DNA of 46,496 bases from a virus: positions 1 to 46,496 of the IMG/VR virus record IMGVR_UViG_3300044699_000101, one strand, 5' to 3'. Position 1 is the stretch's first letter. Every line of letters begins with the position of its first letter. The position numbers and the translations under genes are program-made. Shown here one piece after another: positions 7,907 to 42,484 of this stretch. A model generated the notes under the pieces. The model worked only from the letters and a program-made list of their open reading frames with translations, was not told the origin of the DNA and made no database searches.

Positions 7907-8139
7907 GCGAGCACCATGGCGGCAGCGATATAGCTATGCTGGGCGTGCCGCAGGGGGATCAGCCCCTGCGGCGTACCAAGGAGAAGAGGATGAGAATCCA
8001 TCTTCTCCTGTCCCTCGGACGGCTGCGGCTGCGGTTTAAGCTCCGCATCCGCCTGTAGGGACAGGGCGCCGGGGGAGTGTAGCAGCTTCCCCGGCTGCCC
8101 TTGGAAGATAGGAGAGAGCAGGACGATTCGCAACATCAT
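7903..8139 (-). CDS. Hypothetical protein, 78 aa
   Basis: I chose the start at 8139 because the ATG overlaps the TGA of the zinc-ribbon gene in an ATGA junction and a GGGAGG lies just upstream. A TTG two codons later is better spaced from that ribosome site. The product begins MMLRIVLLSPIF and has a charged, Gln/Pro-containing middle (KPQPQPSEGQEK). I do not recognise it. It ends in a 4-base overlap with the next gene. Confidence 0.6.
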   Translation of the reverse strand: MMLRIVLLSPIFQGQPGKLLHSPGALSLQADAELKPQPQPSEGQEKMDSHPLLLGTPQGLIPLRHAQHSYIAAAMVLA

Positions 8140-8702
8140 GCCTCCCACGGTCCGATGCGCGAAGCTTTCGGGCGCAAGCACGTGCGGGCGGCCTCGCGTA
8201 GGCGGCGGGCGAGCACGTCGGTGATGACGTATTGGGCCAGCAGCGGCAGGAGCGCGGCGAACCGCTCGCGCTGGTGGAGATGCGGCATGTCGCGCCACAG
8301 GCTAATCGCCTCGTCGACGGCGCGCTCATCGCTGAATGCCTGGTAGATTGCCTCGGCGAGGTCGCGGTCGGCGCTAAGCCGGCCGCGGCCCTGCGCCGCC
8401 GCCGCTACGGATCGCGCTTTTGCTTTCGCTGTGAAAGCCTCCTGTGCCTCGCGATGCTTACAGCCGCAGGAGACATACCTGCCGGACACAACCCGGGCCA
8501 CTCTTTGGACGCAGAAAGTTCCGCAGTCGCAACGGAATTGCCAATGTAGGGCAGTTGACCCCTTCCTTGGGGGTGTGGGACGTATTGCAACGAGCCTGCC
8601 GAAACGCTGGCCGGCAGCGATTGGGGTTCCGCGCAGCCGCCTCCTATCGCGCGACAGGGGCTCGGGGAACTCCTCGGCGAGGTCGCGGTCGTGCTGGCTC
8701 AT
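8136..8702 (-). CDS. Zinc-ribbon protein related to phage HNH-associated domains
   Basis: The ATG at 8702 overlaps the previous stop in an ATGA junction, giving a 188-residue protein beginning MSQHDRDLAEEF. Residues about 29-80 contain GQRFGRLVAI, then WQFRCDCG, then SGRYVSCGCKHREA. These two Cys pairs (CDCG and SCGC) form a zinc-ribbon-like module often found at the N-terminus of phage HNH/AP2-type homing endonucleases. The same module occurs in this genome in the HNH gene at 28980-29861. Here no HNH motif follows; the rest is helical with an Arg-rich end. It is probably a nucleic-acid-binding protein; its role is unknown. The frame extends upstream to 8936, but that part overlaps the next gene and has coding character only from 8702. 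Confidence 0.7.
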   Translation of the reverse strand: MSQHDRDLAEEFPEPLSRDRRRLRGTPIAAGQRFGRLVAIRPTPPRKGSTALHWQFRCDCGTFCVQRVARVVSGRYVSCGCKHREAQEAFTAKAKARSVAAAAQGRGRLSADRDLAEAIYQAFSDERAVDEAISLWRDMPHLHQRERFAALLPLLAQYVITDVLARRLREAARTCLRPKASRIGPWEA

Positions 8703-8911
8703 GGCGCCTCGCCTTCCAGTGGCAACATGGCCTCGTGTGTGGCACGCAGCCGGCGGCGCCGCAGGTCCTGCTCGCGTTCGATGACCAGCGCGTCCGCCAC
8801 GACATCGGCGAGCAGCGCTTCCAGTGCCGGTGTCGTCACCAGCCCGCGGCTGTGCGCCAGGTGCGCGATGTCGGCGAGGGCTTGGCGATAGCCATCGGTC
8901 CACTCGCTCAC
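8699..8911 (-). CDS. Hypothetical protein, 70 aa
   Basis: This is a small helical protein beginning MSEWTDGYRQALADIAHLAHSRG and ending LRATHEAMLPLEGEAP. It has ATGA overlaps with the RuvC-like gene upstream (8908-8911) and the zinc-ribbon gene downstream (8699-8702). The family is not recognised. The tight coupling supports it being expressed. Confidence 0.7.
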   Translation of the reverse strand: MSEWTDGYRQALADIAHLAHSRGLVTTPALEALLADVVADALVIEREQDLRRRRLRATHEAMLPLEGEAP

Positions 8912-9483
8912 GCCGCTTTCCCGCGAGCGATGGCATTGACTGATCTAATTCCGTAAAGCCCGATCAGCGCAGCCTCGGCGCGACCGATGGCGCGGGCCCG
9001 GGTGCAGTAGCCGCGGCGCGCGGTCCACAGGCCGGAATCTTCGGGCAGGAGGCGCCCGGCGCAATCGAGGGCCAGGGCCTTGTCGGCGGCGATGCTGAAG
9101 TGCCGCTTCCACTTGGCTGCGCTGACGATTTCGATCGGCCAGCCGTGGCAGGCGGCGATGGCTTTAATCGCCATGTACCTTTGGCCCAACGCGAAGGCGC
9201 TGCTGGCCCCGATGCGCCGCTCGCCGCCGGCCCACGGTGCCTGCCGCTCGATCCACAGATGGCCGCAGCGGCGCTCGTCAAGGGCGGCGAGCAGCTCCAT
9301 CGCGAGGTCGCGCACGCGCAGTTCCCCGGCACTCATCGGCATGTCGACGATCGCCAAGACACGGCGGGTCTCGGCGTCGATGAAAGCGACCGCGCCATCG
9401 GCGCCGGGATCGCAGCCGGCGACAATCACTGCCACCCCCGCTTGCGGCGGAGCCGCTTCACGGCCGGCTCCGGGGGAGGTCAA
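8908..9483 (-). CDS. RuvC-like Holliday junction resolvase
   Basis: The protein has an RNase H-fold start, VAGCDPGADGAVAFID, with the first acidic residue at D25. A second acid follows in LWIERQAPW (E79), and the C-terminal RAEAALIGLYG carries E170. Between them lies FALGQRYMAIKAIAACHGWPIEIV, characteristic of phage and mitochondrial RuvC-like resolvases. The predicted role is cleavage of four-way junctions during replication or before packaging. The usual aspartate just before RAEAA is replaced here (AIGRAEAA), so catalytic detail is uncertain. The listed start is a TTG at 9483 inside a hairpin; a GTG at 9435 (VAVIVAGCD) gives a more typical length of about 175 residues and may be the true start. 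It has an ATGA overlap with the next gene. Confidence 0.8.
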   Translation of the reverse strand: MTSPGAGREAAPPQAGVAVIVAGCDPGADGAVAFIDAETRRVLAIVDMPMSAGELRVRDLAMELLAALDERRCGHLWIERQAPWAGGERRIGASSAFALGQRYMAIKAIAACHGWPIEIVSAAKWKRHFSIAADKALALDCAGRLLPEDSGLWTARRGYCTRARAIGRAEAALIGLYGIRSVNAIARGKAA

Positions 9484-12952: not shown

Positions 12953-13474
12953 ATGGCTGCCCCCACAGCCAACATCGACGCCGACCTCTGGGAGCGGATC
13001 GTGGATCTGACCCAGGGGCGGCTCCTGATCCCGCAGACCGAGGTCTGCCGCGCCTTCGGCATCACGTCGGAAACGCTGACCCAGGAGATCGAGGCGGGCC
13101 GGCTGCGCTATGTGCTGGTCGGCAGCCGCCGCAAGTTCAAACCATCGGATCTGGCGAACTACCTCCAGCAACAGGAGCGCGGACCTTGCGGCGAAAATCC
13201 CTCGTCAAGCAGCGGCCAGGCCGAGATGGCTGGTATTGCAATTTCCAAATCCGAGGTCGTCGATTTCGCGACCGCCTTGGCGCGGACACCCGCGAAGCCG
13301 CCGAGGCCGAAGCCGCCGCCGTCTTCGCCGCCGCCCAGGCTAGTCGAGACGCGGCTGCGGCGCCCAGCCAGGCGGCGCAGTTCACGCTCGGCGAAGCCCT
13401 CGGGCGCTATTGGGAAATCCGCGGCGCGCATGTCAGGAGCGCCGGCGACATCAAGCGACACAGCCAAACGCTGA
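12953..13474 (+). CDS. Excisionase-like HTH protein overlapping the integrase
   Basis: The ATG at 12953 is best placed relative to AGGAG; an ATG two codons earlier is too close. Residues about 1-78 form a MerR/Xis-type HTH: LWERIVDLTQGRLLIPQTEVCRAFGITSETL, then GRLRYVLVGSRRKFKPSDLANYL. This is typical of a phage excisionase or integrase-partner DNA-binding protein. The frame stays open for a further 289 bases inside the integrase gene, giving ISKSEVVDFATALARTP and a Pro/Arg-rich tail. Similar SKSEVVDF-type tails occur, as I recall, on related HTH proteins, so the overlap may be real dual coding. It could also be a GC-rich shadow frame. Confidence 0.65.
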   Translation: MAAPTANIDADLWERIVDLTQGRLLIPQTEVCRAFGITSETLTQEIEAGRLRYVLVGSRRKFKPSDLANYLQQQERGPCGENPSSSSGQAEMAGIAISKSEVVDFATALARTPAKPPRPKPPPSSPPPRLVETRLRRPARRRSSRSAKPSGAIGKSAARMSGAPATSSDTAKR

Positions 13475-14340
13475 TTCGCGAGCTTGGCAACGAGACGCCG
13501 CTCGCCCGTCTCGGCACCCGCGACCTGGAGGATTACGTCGCCCGTCGGCGGGTCCGTCGGGCCCGGAACCAACAGACCGGCAAGATGGAGTTGCGCGACC
13601 GCGCCAACGCCTCGATCAACCGCGAGATCGGCCTGCTGCGCTCGGTAATCATCGCCGCCCGCCACTGGCGCGTCGCGGTCCCCGACATCGCCTGGGCGCG
13701 GGTCTTTCTGCCCGAGCCCGACAAGGCGCAGACGATCCTGTCGCCGGAAAAGGAATCCGAGCTATTCGAGGCGCTGCGGCCGGATTACTGGCCGCTGATC
13801 GAGTTCGCGCTGATCGCCGGGGTGCGGCTCGAAAACGCCATCGGATTGCGCTGGGAGCAGATCGACTGGCAAGGCCGCACGCTGACCTTCCGGGTCAAGT
13901 CGCGCCGGCCAGGCGGCAAACTCCTGGTGCTGCCGCTGACCGAGACCTTGGCGCTGCTGTTGGCTCGCGAGCAGGGGCGGGACAAGGAGTTTGTCTTCAC
14001 TTATGTCTGTCGCCGCAATCGGCACGACCCGCACCACAACGTGATGCAGGCGAAGGGCGCCCGCTATCCCTTCACGCACGATGGGTGGCGCAAGGATTGG
14101 ATGGCCGCTCGCGCGGCGATCGGCCTGCCGACGATGCGCTTCCACGATCTGCGCCACACCGCGGCCACCCGCACCTTGGCTGCCTGCGGCAACCTTAACG
14201 TGGTCAAGGAAATGCTCGGGCACGCCGACATCGCGACGACCGCGCGCTACGCCAATTCGGACACCGCCCAGGTGCGCGCTGCGATGGAGGCGGTGCAGCC
14301 GCGACCAACGCTACGGCCAGTTCAGATAAGGGGAGGCTGA
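13186..14340 (+). CDS. Tyrosine-family site-specific integrase
   Basis: A 384-residue tyrosine recombinase. The start is a TTG at 13186 preceded by AGGAG at 8-base spacing. The N-terminal arm-binding part (WYCNFQIRGRRFRDRLG) and core-binding domain lead into the catalytic domain. Active-site residues are visible: R214 (AGVR), a candidate Lys at 238 (RVKSRR), H320 and R323 (HDLRH), H346 (LGHAD) and nucleophile Y355 (TTARY). It recombines phage attP with the bacterial attB. The putative attP core, derived from a tRNA-Pro gene, lies 234 bases downstream, the usual arrangement. The first 289 bases are also open in the frame of the excisionase-like gene. Confidence 0.95.
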   Translation: MRRKSLVKQRPGRDGWYCNFQIRGRRFRDRLGADTREAAEAEAAAVFAAAQASRDAAAAPSQAAQFTLGEALGRYWEIRGAHVRSAGDIKRHSQTLIRELGNETPLARLGTRDLEDYVARRRVRRARNQQTGKMELRDRANASINREIGLLRSVIIAARHWRVAVPDIAWARVFLPEPDKAQTILSPEKESELFEALRPDYWPLIEFALIAGVRLENAIGLRWEQIDWQGRTLTFRVKSRRPGGKLLVLPLTETLALLLAREQGRDKEFVFTYVCRRNRHDPHHNVMQAKGARYPFTHDGWRKDWMAARAAIGLPTMRFHDLRHTAATRTLAACGNLNVVKEMLGHADIATTARYANSDTAQVRAAMEAVQPRPTLRPVQIRGG

Positions 14341-33873: not shown

Positions 33874-34346
33874 CAGGTAGGCGGCGATAGTTGACGCATT
33901 AACCGATCTAAGCTGGAGGGTTGTGGCGGCGGCGCAAACAACACATTGCCTTGCCGATCAATCAACCGGCCCTCCGGGGTCCAACGCGGCGCATCCGGGG
34001 TCGCCCACTGGCTGTCAGCCGAGAACGTCTGATGTAGAGGGGTCTTCCAATAATCGGGGTAATGTAATCGCCGGTCATGCGGGTCGATCGCAGAAACCGC
34101 GCGCGGGTCTTGATTTTGCAATCCCAGCCAGAACCCCCGCATGTCGTAGTCAGTAACCCCGGCCTCGGGATTGAATGGAACCTTATTCTGACCAATCCAG
34201 CCCCGGAACGCCTGCTCGGCCTCGGGCGTCAAAGGCGTGTTGTAGACATGCTCGCCGGGTTTGATATAGGCAGCGTTGACCCCCTCCATCGTAGCGAAAG
34301 GATCGCCACCGATCCGCGCCAACAACGCATCCAATACGTCCATCAA
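33873..34346 (-). CDS. Conserved phage protein, 157 aa
   Basis: It begins MMDVLDALLARIGGDPFATMEG and contains VTDYDMRGFWLGLQNQDPRAVSAIDPHDRRLHYPDYWKTPLHQTFSADSQWATPDAPRW. The YDMRGF and HYPDYWKTPxHxTFSxxSQWA motifs are highly conserved among phage proteins found near portal and ejection proteins. The function is not assigned. It is coupled to the portal gene by a 4-base overlap and to the ART-like gene by TGATG, suggesting the three are translated together. Confidence 0.75.
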   Translation of the reverse strand: MMDVLDALLARIGGDPFATMEGVNAAYIKPGEHVYNTPLTPEAEQAFRGWIGQNKVPFNPEAGVTDYDMRGFWLGLQNQDPRAVSAIDPHDRRLHYPDYWKTPLHQTFSADSQWATPDAPRWTPEGRLIDRQGNVLFAPPPQPSSLDRLMRQLSPPT

Positions 34347-36867
34347 GCGTTGCCGCCACCATTAGCCTCCGGCGGCCGGATGCCCTGCCCGGCGGCATAG
34401 GCCCCGGCGGCATATTTAAGGCGCACCTCCTGCAGCCGCACCTCGTTCTGCGCCTCCATCTGCGCCCGCGCGATCAAGATGTCGTTGGCACTTTTCTGCC
34501 GCTCCAGTTCCATCTCGTGGGCTAGGCGGCGCTCCTCCAGCATCAATTCGTGCTGCAGTTTCTGCTGCGCCAGCCCCGCCTCCGCTTGGGCCTGCTGCTG
34601 CTGTAATTGGGCCTCCAATTGAGCCTTCTGTTGGCTCTGCTGAGCCTCGGCCTGGGCTTTAAGCTGAAGGGCTTGGATGGCGGCCTGCGCCTTGATCATC
34701 GCCGGGTCAGGCTTTTGTGGGCCTCCCGGCGGCGGCGAACCCGGCGGCGGCGGCATGCTCGGGTCGCTGAAGAAGCTGGTTTTGAACCCCGCGTTCGTCG
34801 TCAGCTCGTGCAGTGCCGCATAAACATCCTTGGCGTAGACCAAGGGCCCGGTAACGCCGCCCTGCTGCTGCACGATCGTCCCCTGGATCTGGATGACCTG
34901 CATCAGGTGGGCGAGCACCTGATCGCGGTTGCCGGTGCCGAGCCCGACACTGACCGTCACCGGCATCTCGTCACGCCACTCGCGCGGGTCGACCGTCAGA
35001 TAGCCGCCGGTGACCCGGATGATCCGCTCCTGCTGCTGGTTTTTGCGCACCAACTCCATGACGCCGCGCATCAATTTTTCGACGCCGTGCGCGAAGATCC
35101 GGGCAAACAATTCGATACGCTGGCCGGCGGCCTGTTGCAGCATCGCGATCGAGCTGGCCGCCGTATTGTTCAGCGCGTCGGCGGTGATCATGCTGCCCTC
35201 GCGCGCCACGCCGGTGCGCAGTTCGGCCGTCGTGTCGAGGTACTGCACCAGCGGAAACGTCTTGTCCGCGGTGTAGGGAATCGCCATCGGCGAGATACCG
35301 CCGAGCCGCTTTGTCCTGACGATGCCACCGGGGCGCAGGGTTAAGAGATCGTCGTAAGTGTTTTCGTTGACTGAGTCGTCACCGACTTCGACGCGCGGCC
35401 AGTTGGAGAGGTACGCATTATCGAGCATCTGCCGCATGATGACCGATTTGACGTACTGCAGATCCATCACCAGATCCGCCAGGCTCATCCCGACCAGCCG
35501 GTGGCTCATCGGGATCGGCGTGACGCTGACAAACGGCGCCTCGTCAACGCAGTCGATACAAGGCTCGCCGTCGCGGGTCAGGATGACCCGACCGTTGCCG
35601 GCCGTCATCACCTTGTAGAGTTCGGTGGTCCGGCCAGCCTTGCCGTCGCGGCTGAGCTGAACGTAGTTCTCTTCGATCCAGAGATGCTCGCCGGCGTCGA
35701 TGCGCTCGTATTGCGGCGTATCGTCGTCAAGCCGGTGGCGCTCTACTCGCTCCTGGTTCCAATCCAGGCTCTCGTTGGCCGGGATATCCTCCAGGCAGTC
35801 CTCGTCGTAGCCCTGCTGGATCAGATCGCTGCGGGTCCAGCGGCGACGGTGGCACAGGTAGGGGATGTCGTCGCGCTTTGCCCGGCGGCTGAACAGGATC
35901 TCCTCCGGCGGCACGTTTTCGATAACCACCCGGCCGTGTTCGCGGGTAATCCTGAGGGTAACGTCGATCAGTTCAATCTGGGGAGGCGGCGGTGGCGGAG
36001 CGGCTAACAGAAGTTCAGGACGTTGTCCAAATGGCGATACAGCAGGTCCTGCGGGAAACGCTCCGGGAGGCTCAGACGGCAATCCGGGAGGCAATTCGGA
36101 CGCGGGCCGGGAGGCGGCACAGGAGGCAATCCAGGAGATCCAGGAGGCAATTCCAGCGGCAATCCAGGCATCCCTGGAGATGGTCCTGCACCGCCTAACG
36201 GGGGTGCCATACCCGGAGGCGGCATCGGAGGAGGCGGCGCAGGAGGAGGCACAAAAGGCCGATCCATGTTGAACTCGTCGGCGTCCTGGGTGTAACGCCG
36301 GATTTTCACCACCTCGACATCCGCGTCCTGGCCCAACAGCGCGTCGTATTGCTCCTGGGTCAGCCCGGTATAGGTCTTGCTTTCGACAGTTTTCTGGGTG
36401 TTCCACCAATATTTGACCCAACCGAGCTTTTCGAGGAGCGCATCGAACAGCCAGTCGTGCAGGATCATAAACCCGGGGTTGTCGCGGTAGAAAATGTGAT
36501 TGAGGTAATCCGTCGCCTGGGCGGCGCGCGCCTCCATCCCCGGCCGCGGCGCCTCGACGATGCAAATCTGATCCGAGGCGGTAAAGATCCGCAGGAGTGC
36601 CGGCAAGGCCCACTCGACGGCTTCCAAAACGGTCTTGAAGACCACCTGGCTGCGGCCCTCGACCTCGTTGCCGAGGGGCTCTCCGGCAAAGTATTTCTGC
36701 GCCTGCAATCGCTCCTGCGCCAGGCTTCCGCCATCCTGCCCGAGCGCCGCCTGCAATTCCTGCTGGACGACCTGTTTAACATCGTCCTCGTCCAGCCCGT
36801 AATCAGACAGGTCAAGCCCTTGCGCGATAGGCTGCTGGTAGTCGATGCCGAAATTGCCGATCATCAA
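34343..36867 (-). CDS. Portal protein, P22 type, frameshifted
   Basis: The N-terminal frame from 36867 gives MMIGNFGIDYQQPIAQGLDLSDYG, EGRSQVVFKTVLEAVEWALPALLRIFTASDQ, ATDYLNHIFYRDNPGFMILHDWLFDALLEKLGWVKYWWN and a Pro-rich loop. The frame moves near 36100 and continues as LPPGLPSEPPGAFPAGPAV, then IELIDVTLRITREHGRVVIENVPPEEILFSRRAKRDD, VMDLQYVKSVIMRQMLDNAYLSNWPRVEVG and MLQQAAGQRIELFARIFAHGVEKL. The C-terminus is a long Gln-rich coiled coil (LKAQAEAQQSQQKAQLEAQLQQQQ), typical of the portal barrel. About 840 residues in all, normal for large P22-type portals. It forms the dodecameric DNA channel at the head vertex. Confidence 0.9.
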
Positions 36868-37258: not shown

Positions 37259-39624
37259 TTAAACAATACCAAGTTGCGGGTACTTGATCGCCTTCGGCCG
37301 GCCGGCCGGAGTCTCGTACGCCACTGCCATTAATCCAAAAGCGTCAGACCCATGACTACTGAAATCGTGCTCGGGGCCTAACCCCACCTCGCGCCAATCA
37401 TCGCTGCGCTTCTCGTGATACCAGCCGAGTGCGTCCCTGCCGGCTTCCGTCGTCTCGGCGTTAAACCAGACGGCCGGAAATAGCCGGCGAGCCGCCTCGA
37501 TGCGGGCCTTCGCGGCGCCGCGACCCTGGTTGGGGATCACCTCGACGTTGAACCCGGCCGCCCTAAAAGCACTCTCGAACGACACGTCATAAACCCGGTC
37601 ATGGGTCGCGCCGTCATGGGGAGGAAAATCTGCGCCTTGCCCCAGCCGCGCTCGCGCAGCCAGTCGACATGCACGCCAAGGCTCTGTCCGACCGCCTCGT
37701 AATAGTCGAGCACCCGCACCTCGCGACCGACAAACTGGCAAACCCACATCGCGAACGCATCGCTGCGGGCGCCCGTGCCGCCCAAATCGCAATACGCCCG
37801 CACCGCCATCAGCGGGTCACGTGTGACCCGGCCAATGCGGCCCTCTTGGCTCGCATCCGACAGAAATTTGGCGTAGTAGGCGCCGGCATGGGCGATCGCG
37901 TACTCGCCCTCCCAGATATGCGGATACTGCTCCGGCCGCTTCGCCTCATCCTCGCGACGGATCTGGTCGAGGGTCGAGGGGAACCAGGCGTTATCACGCC
38001 AGTTCAGTTCGACAATCTTGCTGTTTTCCGGCGGGTTGACCCGGAAACGCTGGTTGGTCGCGCTGGCCCGCCGCTCGGGGTTCCAGGTCACCCAGATTTC
38101 CGCATTCTCCTCGCGGACGGTCGGGATCGCCTTCTGCCACGCCATCTCGCTGACCGGCTCGGCCTCGTCGACCCACAGAAGGCGTATCCGAGCGGTCGAT
38201 TTGACGCTCTCGATGTTTCTTCTAAGGCCGACAAAGGAGAAATCGATCCGCCCGTCGCGGGTGCGGATAAACTTCTCGCCGATCTCGTAATTGTCTCTGA
38301 GCCACGGCTCGGTCTCGATCGCCTGCTTGACTTCCGCCATGCTGCTTTCGTCGAGGCTGTTCTGAAACTCGCGGCCGCAGACGATAACCCCGCTTTCCTT
38401 CGCCAGGGCGCACCGCAGCCCGTGCACGGCGGCCATCTTGGCGAAGGATCGACTGTTATGCGTTACCGTTCCGTCAGCCAGCATAAAAAGGTGGTCGCCG
38501 TCGAGTTCAAAACCAAAATATGCACCGACGCCGATTTCCTCTATGTCAACCCGGGTGCGGCGCCAATCCTTGTTTTTAACGACGCGTGCGGCATCACGTT
38601 TGCGCGCAACCCTTAAAGGCAATCTGTCGATGTCTCCCCCGATCTGGCATTTCCAGGCGGCGCAAATCTTGCCGTTAAGCGGCACCGGGGTATAACGCTT
38701 GCTGGCCTTGAAGCCTAAACCGTGCGCGAGCCGGATAATGTCGTCCAGCATCGCCTCACGCGACTGCGCAATCGCGATACATCCTGTCGATACATGACCA
38801 TCCGTATCAACCAGGCCGGCCAGCAGCGCCAATCGCTGTTCCGTCGACGCGCCGAAATACTCTTCCGGTATATGCTTGTTCCTAAACACCCCGGCGACGC
38901 GCAATTGCTGCACGAAACTCCCAGCCCGCGAATACTCGCTGCCAATATAAAACCGAGATGCGCTCCTACCATTGCCCATCTCGGAAACAACCCAGTTCTC
39001 CTCCTCGGCATACGCATAAATAAATGAGATTATCTCTGGATCCGGATTGGTGATTTCCGACGCCTTCGCGGTGCCGTCTCCCAACCACAGCCCGAGGAAA
39101 TAAGGATCAACCGTAAGCGCCTTATGCATCCCAACAATCGGCCGGCGAAAGCCAAAATGCTGGGTCTTGAACCGCTCTGGTTTCTTGGCATAGTCAGCCG
39201 CGGTAATCAGCGAATAGCCTAGCCCTGTATCGTATCCGGCGTACCTGCCATTGACCCTTTGTGGGTTCCCAGCCAGGCTGATAGAGCCGAAATCCTCAGC
39301 GGCGTGTCGCGATCTCTCCAGCACCAGAATGTGGTCGCCGTTCACCACATAGCTCATGCCGGTCTTTTGCGTCACCCGGTAAAGCGGAGCAATCCCCTGA
39401 GCTAACCCACACACCCTGCGCGGCCGGCCATCCGGACCAAGAAGGCAATCCCCTTCTCGCACATCCTCGACCGCAACAAGCGACGCATCCGCCCGCAGAA
39501 CCTTGGTTCCCCGACCAAAACATTTGGCACTGCCGCGTCCGCCATACGCGCCGCGGTACAAGGCTTCGCCGGAGAACACCTCAACCAGCTTCTCCGGCAG
39601 CTCGATCTGGCCCGACTTCGCCAA
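37259..39624 (-). CDS. Terminase large subunit (PBSX type) interrupted by an intein; one frameshift
   Basis: The start MAKSGQIELPEKLVEVFSGEALYRGAYGGRGSAK leads to the Walker A site, which is interrupted after K34 by a 356-residue intein; SRSFAKMAAVHGLR resumes at 391. Walker B is LLWVDEAEP (D486, E487 in the unspliced numbering). Other family motifs are GVIVCGREFQNSLDESSM, EIWVTWNPERRASATNQRF, HIWEGEY and the nuclease region RAYCDLGGTGARSDAFAM. The frame shifts at a C4 near 37620 (AQIFLP to HDGATHDRVYDVSFESAF) and ends KAIKYPQLGIV. After splicing the enzyme is about 430 residues, normal for this family. It pumps DNA into the procapsid and cuts concatemers. Confidence 0.93.
38455..39522 (-). 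other. Intein with LAGLIDADG homing endonuclease in terL
   Basis: The 356-residue insert begins with Cys (C35, CFGRGTKVLRADASLVAVEDVREGDCLLGPDG, the block A splicing motif). It has a GDH block B-like site at 96-98 and two DOD motifs: FLGLWLGDG near 176-184 and LLAGLVDTDGHV near 267-278. It ends YFGFELDGDHLFMLADGTVTHN with the penultimate His and terminal Asn (389-390). Ser391 is the +1 nucleophile. All residues needed for canonical cis-splicing are present. The frame stays open through the insert, so it is protein-level, not an intron. The splice site cuts the P-loop between Lys and Ser (GGRGSAK/S). Confidence 0.95.
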
Positions 39625-39646: not shown

Positions 39647-39724
39647 TCAGGGCTTGGTATCGCCACCCGGCAAAGGCCGCGGCTTGCCGCCGCCAACAGC
39701 GACGCCATATGACTCATCCCGCAT
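39647..39724 (-). CDS. Small Gly/Pro-rich ORF, 25 aa
   Basis: ATG at 39724 lies inside the end of the beta-helix gene. The product starts MRDESYGVAVGGGKPRPLPG and ends GDTKP. The GGGKPRPLP motif recurs at the C-terminus of the Pro-rich protein at 15607-16042 (GGGKPRPLPPG), which supports it being translated. It lies between the secreted trio and terL. The function is unknown. Confidence 0.4.
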   Translation of the reverse strand: MRDESYGVAVGGGKPRPLPGGDTKP

Positions 39725-41594
39725 CCGTCGGGTAACAACCGCCGCCAACCAAAGCCGTGTTATTATTGAAAAACACATCGGTTAACGGCCCGCCGGCCGC
39801 GCCGGCCGGCGGGTACAACGAAAATGCCGACCCGGCAATCAACATCGCCGGCTCGACTCCACCCGTCAAACCGTTGAAATTCTGCCAATATGAAGCCTTT
39901 GCCGGAAAGTTTGCCCCGGCTATCCAGGAAACCGTCACCGGCAGCGGCAAACCGCCAACAACCGCCGCCCCGGTCGAGGTGCCTTTGCTCAATAACTGAA
40001 AGTTAAAATATGCACACGCCATCTGCCCGGTACGCCAGTACCGCCCGGCGTTGCTATTGTATGTCAGCCCCGCCTTGGCGCCGCCAAAAGTCAGATCCGG
40101 GGTCCACGCCACCTGCCCCGACTTGGTGTTATCCGTGTCAACAACCTGCGCCCCGGTGCCCTGATGAAAATACCGGGCGCCTGTGCCAACATCGAAATTA
40201 TTCCACAGGTATTTGCTGTTTGTACTGTTATCCCAAACCGTATTGATGTGCGTCGACCCGCGCAGGCTTTCACCCATCACCGTCGTATTGTTGGCTTGAG
40301 TGACATGATAGGCGCCGAACGTATCGGCCGGCGTTACGATGTTGGTATAAGTATTGCCCAGCAACAGCGTATTGGTCGGCGCGCCGCCGTTGTCAACACC
40401 CGCTGCCCCGTTGATATCGACCACCGTGCTACCGGCCCGACTACAGGTGTTGCCGATAAACCGGTTGCCGTCGCTTACCCCCGACACCCGCAGACATATA
40501 AAATTGTTGACGCCGTCGCCCTCGATCGCGTTGCCGATCACACTGACCCGGTCGGCGCCGTTGCCCGCCACCCCCAAACCGTTGAGCCAGATCGCCGCCC
40601 CGCCGCTTGGCCCGACCATCTGAAAGCGATTGCCGATAATCGTCCCGTCGCCGGCCTTCTTCTGCAGTGCGACACCGGCTGTGTCACTGCCGGTAACCAT
40701 CGCGCCGTAGAGGTAACCGACGCAGAAATTATTCTGGACCGACATCGCTTTCGGTCCCTGCCAGTGATCCCAGCAGACATTGTCGATGGCGCCGATCCCA
40801 AGCGTGGCGCCGGCCACAGTGGTGCTTGCCGCCGCCGACAGCGTCAGCGACGTCGGGCCGACCGCCGTCACATGCGTCAGGCGAGCCAGCCCCGGGCCAT
40901 CCACCCGATCGCCAACCGCAATCCCCTCGGTCGACAGAATGCCGTCTATCGTCGTCGTGCCGTGAGTATTACCGACGATCGCCAGACCCGCCTTGCTGCG
41001 AGTGACCGCCGTGTCGGTGGTGCCCAGCATCGCAGTACAATCGCCGCCGTTCATACAGGTGATATCGTCGATCCTGACCCGGTCGACCTCGCGCATCATC
41101 ACGATGTGCCAGTTCGGCAAACCGCTGGCGCCGCCGGAAACCGTCTCAGCCCCCGCCCGAAAACTACAACCCCCGATCTCGATGTCCTGGTCCCGCTGCG
41201 CGTTCGGCACATGACTGGTGATATTCGCCGCCGTGGTGTGCTCGTTGATCGCCACCAGCCACAGCCCGAGAGCCGTCGCCGGCCCACCCTCGCCGGCAAA
41301 ATCGCTGGCGTTAAAGGTGATCCATGTCCCCGGCTCGCACTGTAGTTTGGTATGACTGCTTAGCCGCAAGGTATTGGTAATGTGATAAGTGCCGGCCTGC
41401 ACAGCCACCACACCGCCGCCATTGGCCTTCGCCGCCGCTAATGCAGCCGCAATACTGCCGCCCGGCTCAACCGGAAAGGCCTGCCCGAGATTGCGGCTGG
41501 CCTCCGGCAGTTTCGCATTGCTGCCGTCCTGGTACATATCCGCCGCGGCCGGCAGAGCCAGCAGCAACAGCGGCAGCGACAGCCACCACCTCAT
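39714..41594 (-). CDS. Secreted right-handed beta-helix protein (tailspike or pectate-lyase-like), 626 aa
   Basis: The ATG at 41594 overlaps the stop of the upstream gene (TAATG). It starts MRWWLSLPLLLLALPAAAD, a clear Sec signal peptide with an AAA-D cleavage site. After a linker, GGSIAAALAAAKANGGGVVAVQAGTYHITNTLRL opens a parallel beta-helix of the pectate lyase/GH28 class, with repeats such as VSVIGNAIEGDGVNNFICLRVSGVSDGNRFIGNTCSRAG. The C-terminal part (ACAYFNFQLLSKGTSTG) looks like a receptor or trimer domain. Beta-helix proteins in phages are usually polysaccharide-degrading tailspikes, but these do not normally carry signal peptides. No catalytic residues can be assigned by eye. Confidence 0.8.
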   Translation of the reverse strand: MRWWLSLPLLLLALPAAADMYQDGSNAKLPEASRNLGQAFPVEPGGSIAAALAAAKANGGGVVAVQAGTYHITNTLRLSSHTKLQCEPGTWITFNASDFAGEGGPATALGLWLVAINEHTTAANITSHVPNAQRDQDIEIGGCSFRAGAETVSGGASGLPNWHIVMMREVDRVRIDDITCMNGGDCTAMLGTTDTAVTRSKAGLAIVGNTHGTTTIDGILSTEGIAVGDRVDGPGLARLTHVTAVGPTSLTLSAAASTTVAGATLGIGAIDNVCWDHWQGPKAMSVQNNFCVGYLYGAMVTGSDTAGVALQKKAGDGTIIGNRFQMVGPSGGAAIWLNGLGVAGNGADRVSVIGNAIEGDGVNNFICLRVSGVSDGNRFIGNTCSRAGSTVVDINGAAGVDNGGAPTNTLLLGNTYTNIVTPADTFGAYHVTQANNTTVMGESLRGSTHINTVWDNSTNSKYLWNNFDVGTGARYFHQGTGAQVVDTDNTKSGQVAWTPDLTFGGAKAGLTYNSNAGRYWRTGQMACAYFNFQLLSKGTSTGAAVVGGLPLPVTVSWIAGANFPAKASYWQNFNGLTGGVEPAMLIAGSAFSLYPPAGAAGGPLTDVFFNNNTALVGGGCYPTDAG

Positions 41595-42484
41595 TAAAAA
41601 CCCCAGTAATCGCGTTGGTTCTGGGTCAGCGCCGCGCGCTCGGCCGGCGCCAGAACATAGTTGTCCCAGACCAACGCCTCCACCTGGCTGCACACCGTGC
41701 CGGTATTGCCGCGCGCAACCAGCACACTCCCCGCCGCCGCGCTGCCCGTCACGTTCGTCCCCACCGTCTCCGTCGCGTCGATCCGACCGAGGCTCGCCGC
41801 CCCGTCCACGACCCCGATGCCGGCGTGCCACGCATTGTCGGCAGCGCTCAATGCAAAGTTGTTCGTCGTCTGATCCGACACGAGCCACTGGTTCGCCACC
41901 GTGTGGCTGCCGATCAAAGAAATGTGCTTCGAGGACAATGTGCAGTTGCCCGTCCCCGAGGTGCGGTTGCCGACCGCCGACAGCGTCGTCCTGGCCGCCG
42001 TCCACGCCACGCTCGCGCTGATCAAATACCCGTTGGGGTCGGCAACCGGCCGCAGGCACGGCTTGCCGGTGACGCAGCTCGCAATGTATTGCGGCTGATA
42101 TCCCGGCGTCGCCTGCGTGACGTTGCGCGCCTGGCCGCTCTGATCGTACCAGGTATCAACAAAACACGTCGTCGCATTGCAGAAACTCGCCGCCGCCGCC
42201 ACGTCCAATGGCGCCCCGGTGAACCCGGTAAACCCAAGAAAGTTGATGTCCTGCGTGGCGTTGTCGCTGGCCCGTCGCAATTTGATGCCCGGGCCGGCGT
42301 AGGTGCTCTTCAGCTTGCGCAGGCTGTATGCCGCCGCCGAGCTCGCAAACGCCCCGCCGCCATCCAACGGCGCAATCGCCCCCTGCAGCCGGTGCCCGGC
42401 ATGCAGCACGTTTGGCCCGGCATGCATCCGCGCCACCGCCGGCGATGCCGCCAGCAGCAGCGCGGCGGCCACCGCCGCCCTCAC
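41594..42484 (-). CDS. Secreted arabinofuranosidase B-like protein, 296 aa
   Basis: The GTG start at 42484 overlaps the preceding TGA (GTGA). The N-terminus MRAAVAAALLLAASPAVARM is a signal peptide with an AVA-R site. Residues about 49-300 resemble the catalytic/concanavalin-like domain of alpha-L-arabinofuranosidase B (GH54-type): AAYSLRKLKSTYAGPGIKLRRASDNATQDINF, then CFVDTWYDQSGQARNVTQATPGYQPQY, then KHISLIGSHTVANQW and EALVWDNYVLAPAERAAL. The TWYDQSG motif is strongly diagnostic of this fold. In phages it may bind or cut host polysaccharide as a secreted factor or tail component. The overlap pattern shows translation with both neighbours. Confidence 0.8.
   Translation of the reverse strand: MRAAVAAALLLAASPAVARMHAGPNVLHAGHRLQGAIAPLDGGGAFASSAAAYSLRKLKSTYAGPGIKLRRASDNATQDINFLGFTGFTGAPLDVAAAASFCNATTCFVDTWYDQSGQARNVTQATPGYQPQYIASCVTGKPCLRPVADPNGYLISASVAWTAARTTLSAVGNRTSGTGNCTLSSKHISLIGSHTVANQWLVSDQTTNNFALSAADNAWHAGIGVVDGAASLGRIDATETVGTNVTGSAAAGSVLVARGNTGTVCSQVEALVWDNYVLAPAERAALTQNQRDYWGF

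Follow-up and report, generated by a model that had tools for sequence, protein, structure and literature searches.

A probably active class 1 intein in the Walker A motif of a phage large terminase, and a candidate second intein at the nuclease active site of related terminases

A minus-strand insert in the large terminase (TerL) gene of a 46.5 kb IMG/VR virus record (the whole 46,496-nucleotide stretch is referred to here as the window) is almost certainly a mobile class 1 intein: by its sequence, its modelled fold and its likeness to characterized inteins, the TerL precursor would splice and the LAGLIDADG nuclease of the insert would home into empty terL genes. Relatives of this TerL carry inserts at another position, and terL of this phage group is likely to be a two-site homing target, with a LAGLIDADG intein at the Walker A motif and, in relatives, a second-site intein whose HNH_3 endonuclease would lie in the +2 frame over a stop-free shadow in the TerL frame. 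The features of the window are as follows.

39523..39624, minus strand: TerL N-extein, 34 residues, with a TTG start codon and Walker A GGRGSAK (39523-39543) at its C-terminal end; directly abuts the C-extein in 66 empty relatives
38455..39522, minus strand: predicted class 1 intein, 356 residues, with LAGLIDADG homing endonuclease (Pfam domains; PI-SceI by sequence and fold)
39520..39522, minus strand: Cys1, predicted first splicing nucleophile, block A; invariant in a 14-row alignment
39331..39333, minus strand: block B His64 of N61-G-D-H64; His invariant in the 14-row alignment
39067..39105, minus strand: first LAGLIDADG motif, block C, PYFLGLWLGDGTA, residues 140-152; D149 (acidic residue) and G150 invariant in the 14-row alignment
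38791..38835, minus strand: second LAGLIDADG motif, block E, RLALLAGLVDTDGHV, residues 230-244, D239/D241; D241 and G242 invariant in the 14-row alignment
38455..38460, minus strand: block G His355-Asn356; Asn invariant, His nearly invariant in the 14-row alignment
38452..38454, minus strand: +1 Ser, predicted splicing nucleophile and Walker A Ser/Thr; Ser/Thr in aligned empty relatives (contig L136 unaligned here)
37618..38454, minus strand: TerL C-extein in the N-extein frame, 279 residues, to a frame break; Terminase_3; 99% identical over the 279 residues to the empty allele L082
37262..37642, minus strand: C-terminal nuclease part of TerL, read in a different frame in this contig; 94% identical to its counterpart in L083/L084, where it is in a single frame
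37358..37363, minus strand: empty second intein site, between HDF and SSHGSD at the nuclease active site; relatives are interrupted exactly here

Translation of 38455-39522 (minus strand) yielded 356 codons without a stop, starting with CFGRGT and ending with GTVTHN, and the next residue was Ser. The Cys start, His-Asn end and following Ser of the original prediction were therefore exact to the base. The insert corresponds to residues 35-390 of a 695-residue minus-strand ORF (37537-39624) and is located between ...GGRGSAK and SRSFAKM... of TerL, so that the Walker A motif is split as GGRGSAK^S. The N61-G-D-H64 sequence fits what we take to be the NxxH pattern of PI-SceI, and with C1, H355-N356, Ser+1, a Hint fold, an in-frame position and an exact empty site it gives the insert the build of a class 1 intein. 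The two DOD endonuclease motifs that had been predicted were found as dodecapeptide motifs with acidic residues, and the insert matched the Pfam families Hom_end_hint (PF05203, 2.4e-19), LAGLIDADG_3 (PF14528, 1.4e-8) and Hom_end (PF05204, 1.6e-8), all above their curated cut-offs. PI-SceI was the best sequence match among solved structures (E 9.9e-19). An AlphaFold model built from the 14-row alignment (pLDDT 85, pTM 0.83) was aligned by Foldseek with PI-SceI over almost its full length (E 3.5e-26, TM 0.75). From sequence and model, the insert is a genuine class 1 intein that is probably active.

The host protein matched Pfam Terminase_3 (PF04466; E 1.4e-15; 57.8 bits, cut-off 23.2). Its description as a PBSX-type TerL was borne out to this extent; the TIGR01547 profile for that type gave E 1.2e-18 but, at 67.7 bits, stayed under its curated cut-off of 105; the empty allele L082 likewise fell under that cut-off, at 80.8 bits. 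As assembled, the TerL frame is broken near 37618-37642 when compared with several intact relatives by tblastn: the end of the 695-residue ORF is translated in the wrong frame, whereas the relatives continue in one frame. If the break is real, the window copy is without an in-frame nuclease C-terminus. The portal frame is also broken, near 36094-36109, with the N-terminal part in 36004-36867 and the remainder in 34343-36613. Assembly or sequencing error could also account for isolated breaks of this sort in TerL and portal genes that are otherwise conserved.

Related TerLs were gathered by a scan with the C-extein, which returned 70 contigs; 69 TerLs were readable across both flanks. In 66 of these 69 the insert was absent and the flanks joined exactly at GGRGSAK^S or K^T, which upholds the predicted insertion between the Walker A Lys and Ser. 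Some of the 66 are near-identical to one another. As so many TerLs are empty with an identical junction, chance is excluded as the source of the insert boundaries. The insert was present in the alleles of the window, of L002 and L095 (inteins 91% and 89% identical to that of the window) and of the truncated L003 (93%); searching with the intein alignment for further occupied alleles added none, leaving the total at four. In the TerL tree these four are scattered and close to empty alleles, and the contig names place occupied L095 and empty L098 in one and the same sample.

The intein has evolved under purifying selection. Its dN/dS was 0.047 between the window and L002 and 0.066 between the window and L095, and the values for the nuclease domain (residues 125-310) were 0.052 and 0.059, respectively. 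As dN/dS is in the range of 0.05-0.07 with the nuclease included, both the splicing and the nuclease functions appear to have been kept. The intein protein is less diverged than the host gene in these comparisons: intein dN was 0.057 (L002) and 0.068 (L095), compared with 0.165 and 0.142 for the C-extein. The patchy distribution and low dN/dS make it very probable, on sequence grounds, that this is an active homing intein that spreads laterally; the original prediction of spread by homing agrees with the distribution and with purifying selection on the nuclease.

The DNA beside the insert was also compared with that of empty alleles. Differences between the window and its closest empty relatives, L082, L085, L086, L088 and L090, were enriched beside the insert (odds ratio 2.4-5.4); against the more distant empty L092 the same near-versus-far comparison gave 1.8, and against L112 no enrichment. 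Control pairs of two empty alleles mostly gave 0.8-1.7, but two pairs gave 2.2-2.3, and the near-site DNA of occupied L002 and L095 was common to empty L108 and L098. General recombination therefore contributes to the flank signal. The flanks diverge beside the insert as co-conversion predicts, which has moderate support in a region that recombines anyway.

On the proposed mechanism, terL would be translated as a precursor containing the intein, which would be excised through an N-S acyl shift at Cys1, transfer to Ser+1 and cyclisation of Asn356, followed by extein ligation. Splicing would re-form the Walker A loop, GGRGSAKS. The LAGLIDADG domain of the free intein would then cut, at the empty Lys-Ser codon junction, the intein-free terL of relatives that co-infect the cell or reside in it, and repair would copy the intein, with some flanking DNA, into the cut gene. 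Because the gene is essential and the site is constrained at the codon level, the intein would be hard to lose. Mycobacteriophage TerL inteins splice and cut empty alleles in vitro (PMC5050341).

It had also been proposed that splicing could time DNA packaging; on such a reading, slow or signal-dependent splicing would delay the ATPase and the intein would be kept for that purpose. As the insertion cuts the P-loop, the unspliced TerL should indeed be inactive, judging by its sequence, and PMC6195587 and PMC5790916 report conditional splicing of ATPase inteins in other organisms. However, 66 of 69 related TerLs manage without the intein, its distribution is patchy, and no regulatory feature or hint of conditional splicing was found in the window sequence. 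In splicing tests on five of the seven types of mycobacteriophage terminase intein, all five spliced readily and quickly yielded ligated extein, and the two types tested for cleavage cut empty alleles (PMC5050341). A role as a timing switch is consequently very improbable.

A further alternative is that the intein is open but stranded in a decaying prophage or defective phage whose host gene has become a pseudogene. The single frame breaks in TerL and in the portal, relative to intact relatives, and the presence of an integrase gene at 13186-14340 are compatible with this; but the intein motifs are intact, dN/dS against occupied relatives is 0.05-0.07, the C-extein is 99% identical to intact alleles, and isolated breaks in conserved genes have the other explanation given above. 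A dead-end intein is therefore unlikely, though less so than a timing switch. The single open frame through the insert would also be expected if the insert were a normal domain of this TerL branch. Alignment with intein-free homologues had been suggested as a check on that reading; the 66 empty alleles with exact joining rule it out, and the fold of the insert is that of PI-SceI. The mobile, self-splicing intein is thus strongly preferred over all three.

The insertion point had been singled out for attention, but it is not unusual. The TerL1-a inteins of mycobacteriophages lie between the Walker A Lys and the Thr/Ser nucleophile, the classic P-loop site (PMC5050341, Kelley et al. 2016), and thus at the same point as the window intein; their host protein is terminase_1, however, whereas that of the window is Terminase_3. 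Mycobacteriophage inteins were found only in terminase_1, terminase_6-like and one terminase-like protein (PMC5050341), and those sampled from TerL are distant from the window intein (about 28-37% identity over parts). The TerL inteins of Salmonella phage ST44 and Vibrio phage pYD38-A, phages with near-identical TerLs of the Terminase_3 type like that of the window (profile run on ST44), have Hom_end_hint and LAGLIDADG domains and are about 35% identical to the window intein over the whole length, but they are inserted three residues upstream in Walker A, at GGRG^SGK. The intein of Klebsiella phage JD001 (36% identical, full-length) is inserted at the same P-loop point, GGGK^T, but in a helicase rather than a terminase. 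PI-SceI, the yeast VMA1 intein, combines the whole-length fold match with the best sequence match among solved structures, yet it is about 21% identical, has 454 residues and resides in a V-ATPase subunit. A GK or comparable P-loop position is likewise the point of interruption in further terminases (T4-like, N4-like, Gordonia and others). As the P-loop site and related inteins were already known, the window intein is a further case of a known sort: a new allele at the Lys-Ser point of a Terminase_3 TerL. With its near-identical intein-free alleles, it offers a good natural pair for studying homing in uncultured phages.

The assignment to an alphaproteobacterial phage is plausible in that TerLs of Paracoccus, Rhizobium and Sulfitobacter phages are 59-61% identical, but the best isolate match was a Microcystis phage (64.5%). 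A search for the host by scanning bacterial genome contigs returned only two distant Haemophilus matches (59% over part of TerL), and no tRNAs were found in the window. The integrase gene at 13186-14340 (plus strand; phrog_1, 2.9e-53) implies that the phage is probably temperate. An ORF just upstream of terL (39714-42059) has weak tail-spike similarity (phrog_2234, 1.8e-5) and is poorly conserved among relatives with a good terL match. Another ORF, at 8136-8936, is HNH endonuclease-like (phrog_374, 4.2e-11), and in Paracoccus phage KLEP18-1 a free-standing HNH endonuclease gene (L159 461-1069) lies between the small and large terminase subunit genes.

The second insertion site is in the nuclease domain. 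Eight related TerLs (L002, L093, L099, L103, L104, L109, L123 and L124) are interrupted right after HD(W) and before SSHG(A/S)D or a close variant, a position that presumably adjoins the third catalytic Asp of the TerL nuclease. These inserts and further examples are as follows.

L002 7164-7883; L093 4096-4815; L099 3233-3958: putative second intein HDW^C...SN^SSHG, HNH_3 in +2
L103 4099-4818; L104 4096-4815; L123 2435-3154: the same
L124 3695-4414; L169 284-1003; L172 2325-3044: the same
L109 1173-2000 (= L189); L190/L191 2501-3334; L192 882-1742: different splicing-domain group, nuclease site, HNH in +2 (HNH_3 profile run on L109)
L177 2115-3068: Tetrasphaera phage TJE1 (HQ225832.1), putative nuclease-domain intein DHI^C...SN^CDAGEY, HNH in +2
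L187 2501-3454: distant relative of the TJE1 element, with the same build
L002 4911-7982: TerL with both putative inteins (Walker A and nuclease site), 1024-residue reading frame

The second-site inserts are 240-276 residues long and have N- and C-terminal splicing blocks in the TerL frame. The Intein_splicing profile matched the L109 insert over its curated cut-off (1e-11), and Hint_2 matched the L002 insert just under its own (1.6e-5). No nuclease was found in the TerL frame of the inserts in the eight contigs. In all seven inserts of 240-242 residues, however, the +2 frame of the middle part was open for about 190 codons and contained an in-frame ATG whose position is conserved; HNH_3 was matched in the +2 frame of L002 (2.5e-15), L104 (3.9e-15) and L109 (8.7e-14). 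The pattern of substitution followed the same division: the third position of the TerL frame was the most variable in the splicing parts, that of the +2 frame in the middle, and the pattern reverted at the end. This switch was also seen when L109 was compared with L190 and L192. Protein identity of the middle part was 0.51 in the TerL frame versus 0.79 in the +2 frame, and higher in the +2 frame in 21 of 21 pairs. When the HNH sequences were resampled with synonymous codons, the TerL frame was free of stops in just 8-9% of trials per sequence. In a model of the in-frame protein the ends fold (pLDDT mostly 77-94) and the middle is disordered (26-51), and the ordered part matched intein splicing domains.

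The same arrangement of splicing halves in frame and an HNH in +2 was seen in TJE1, an isolated phage in which the putative intein lies within the annotated terL, and in L187, L190/L191 and L192, so that several unrelated phages share it. By these sequence comparisons and the model, it is likely that the second-site class is real and combines in-frame splicing halves with an HNH_3 endonuclease encoded in +2. As L002 has both putative inteins, splicing would be needed twice in its TerL, to restore the packaging ATPase and to restore the nuclease.

In mycobacteriophages every TerL intein lies in the ATPase domain (PMC5050341), and hidden HNH insertions in phage genes have been described without splicing domains (PMC11855218). 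Among the latter, the ShiLan domain is like the second-site inteins in being an out-of-frame HNH endonuclease within a phage-gene insertion, but it lacks a splicing domain and is inserted in a DNA methylase, whereas the inserts of the relatives carry Hint splicing blocks and interrupt TerL. A literature search for inteins with an out-of-frame HNH returned only a genome note on a methylase and the ShiLan work; a 2025 bioRxiv paper on actinobacteriophage inteins of ‘non-canonical architecture’ lay outside that search. The second-site inteins of the relatives are a stronger find than the Walker A intein of the window. If their reading is correct, an intein can gain a homing nuclease by overprinting while its splicing protein is unchanged, and whether hidden nucleases are translated, as has been asked of the ShiLan domain, would become testable beside a splicing host.
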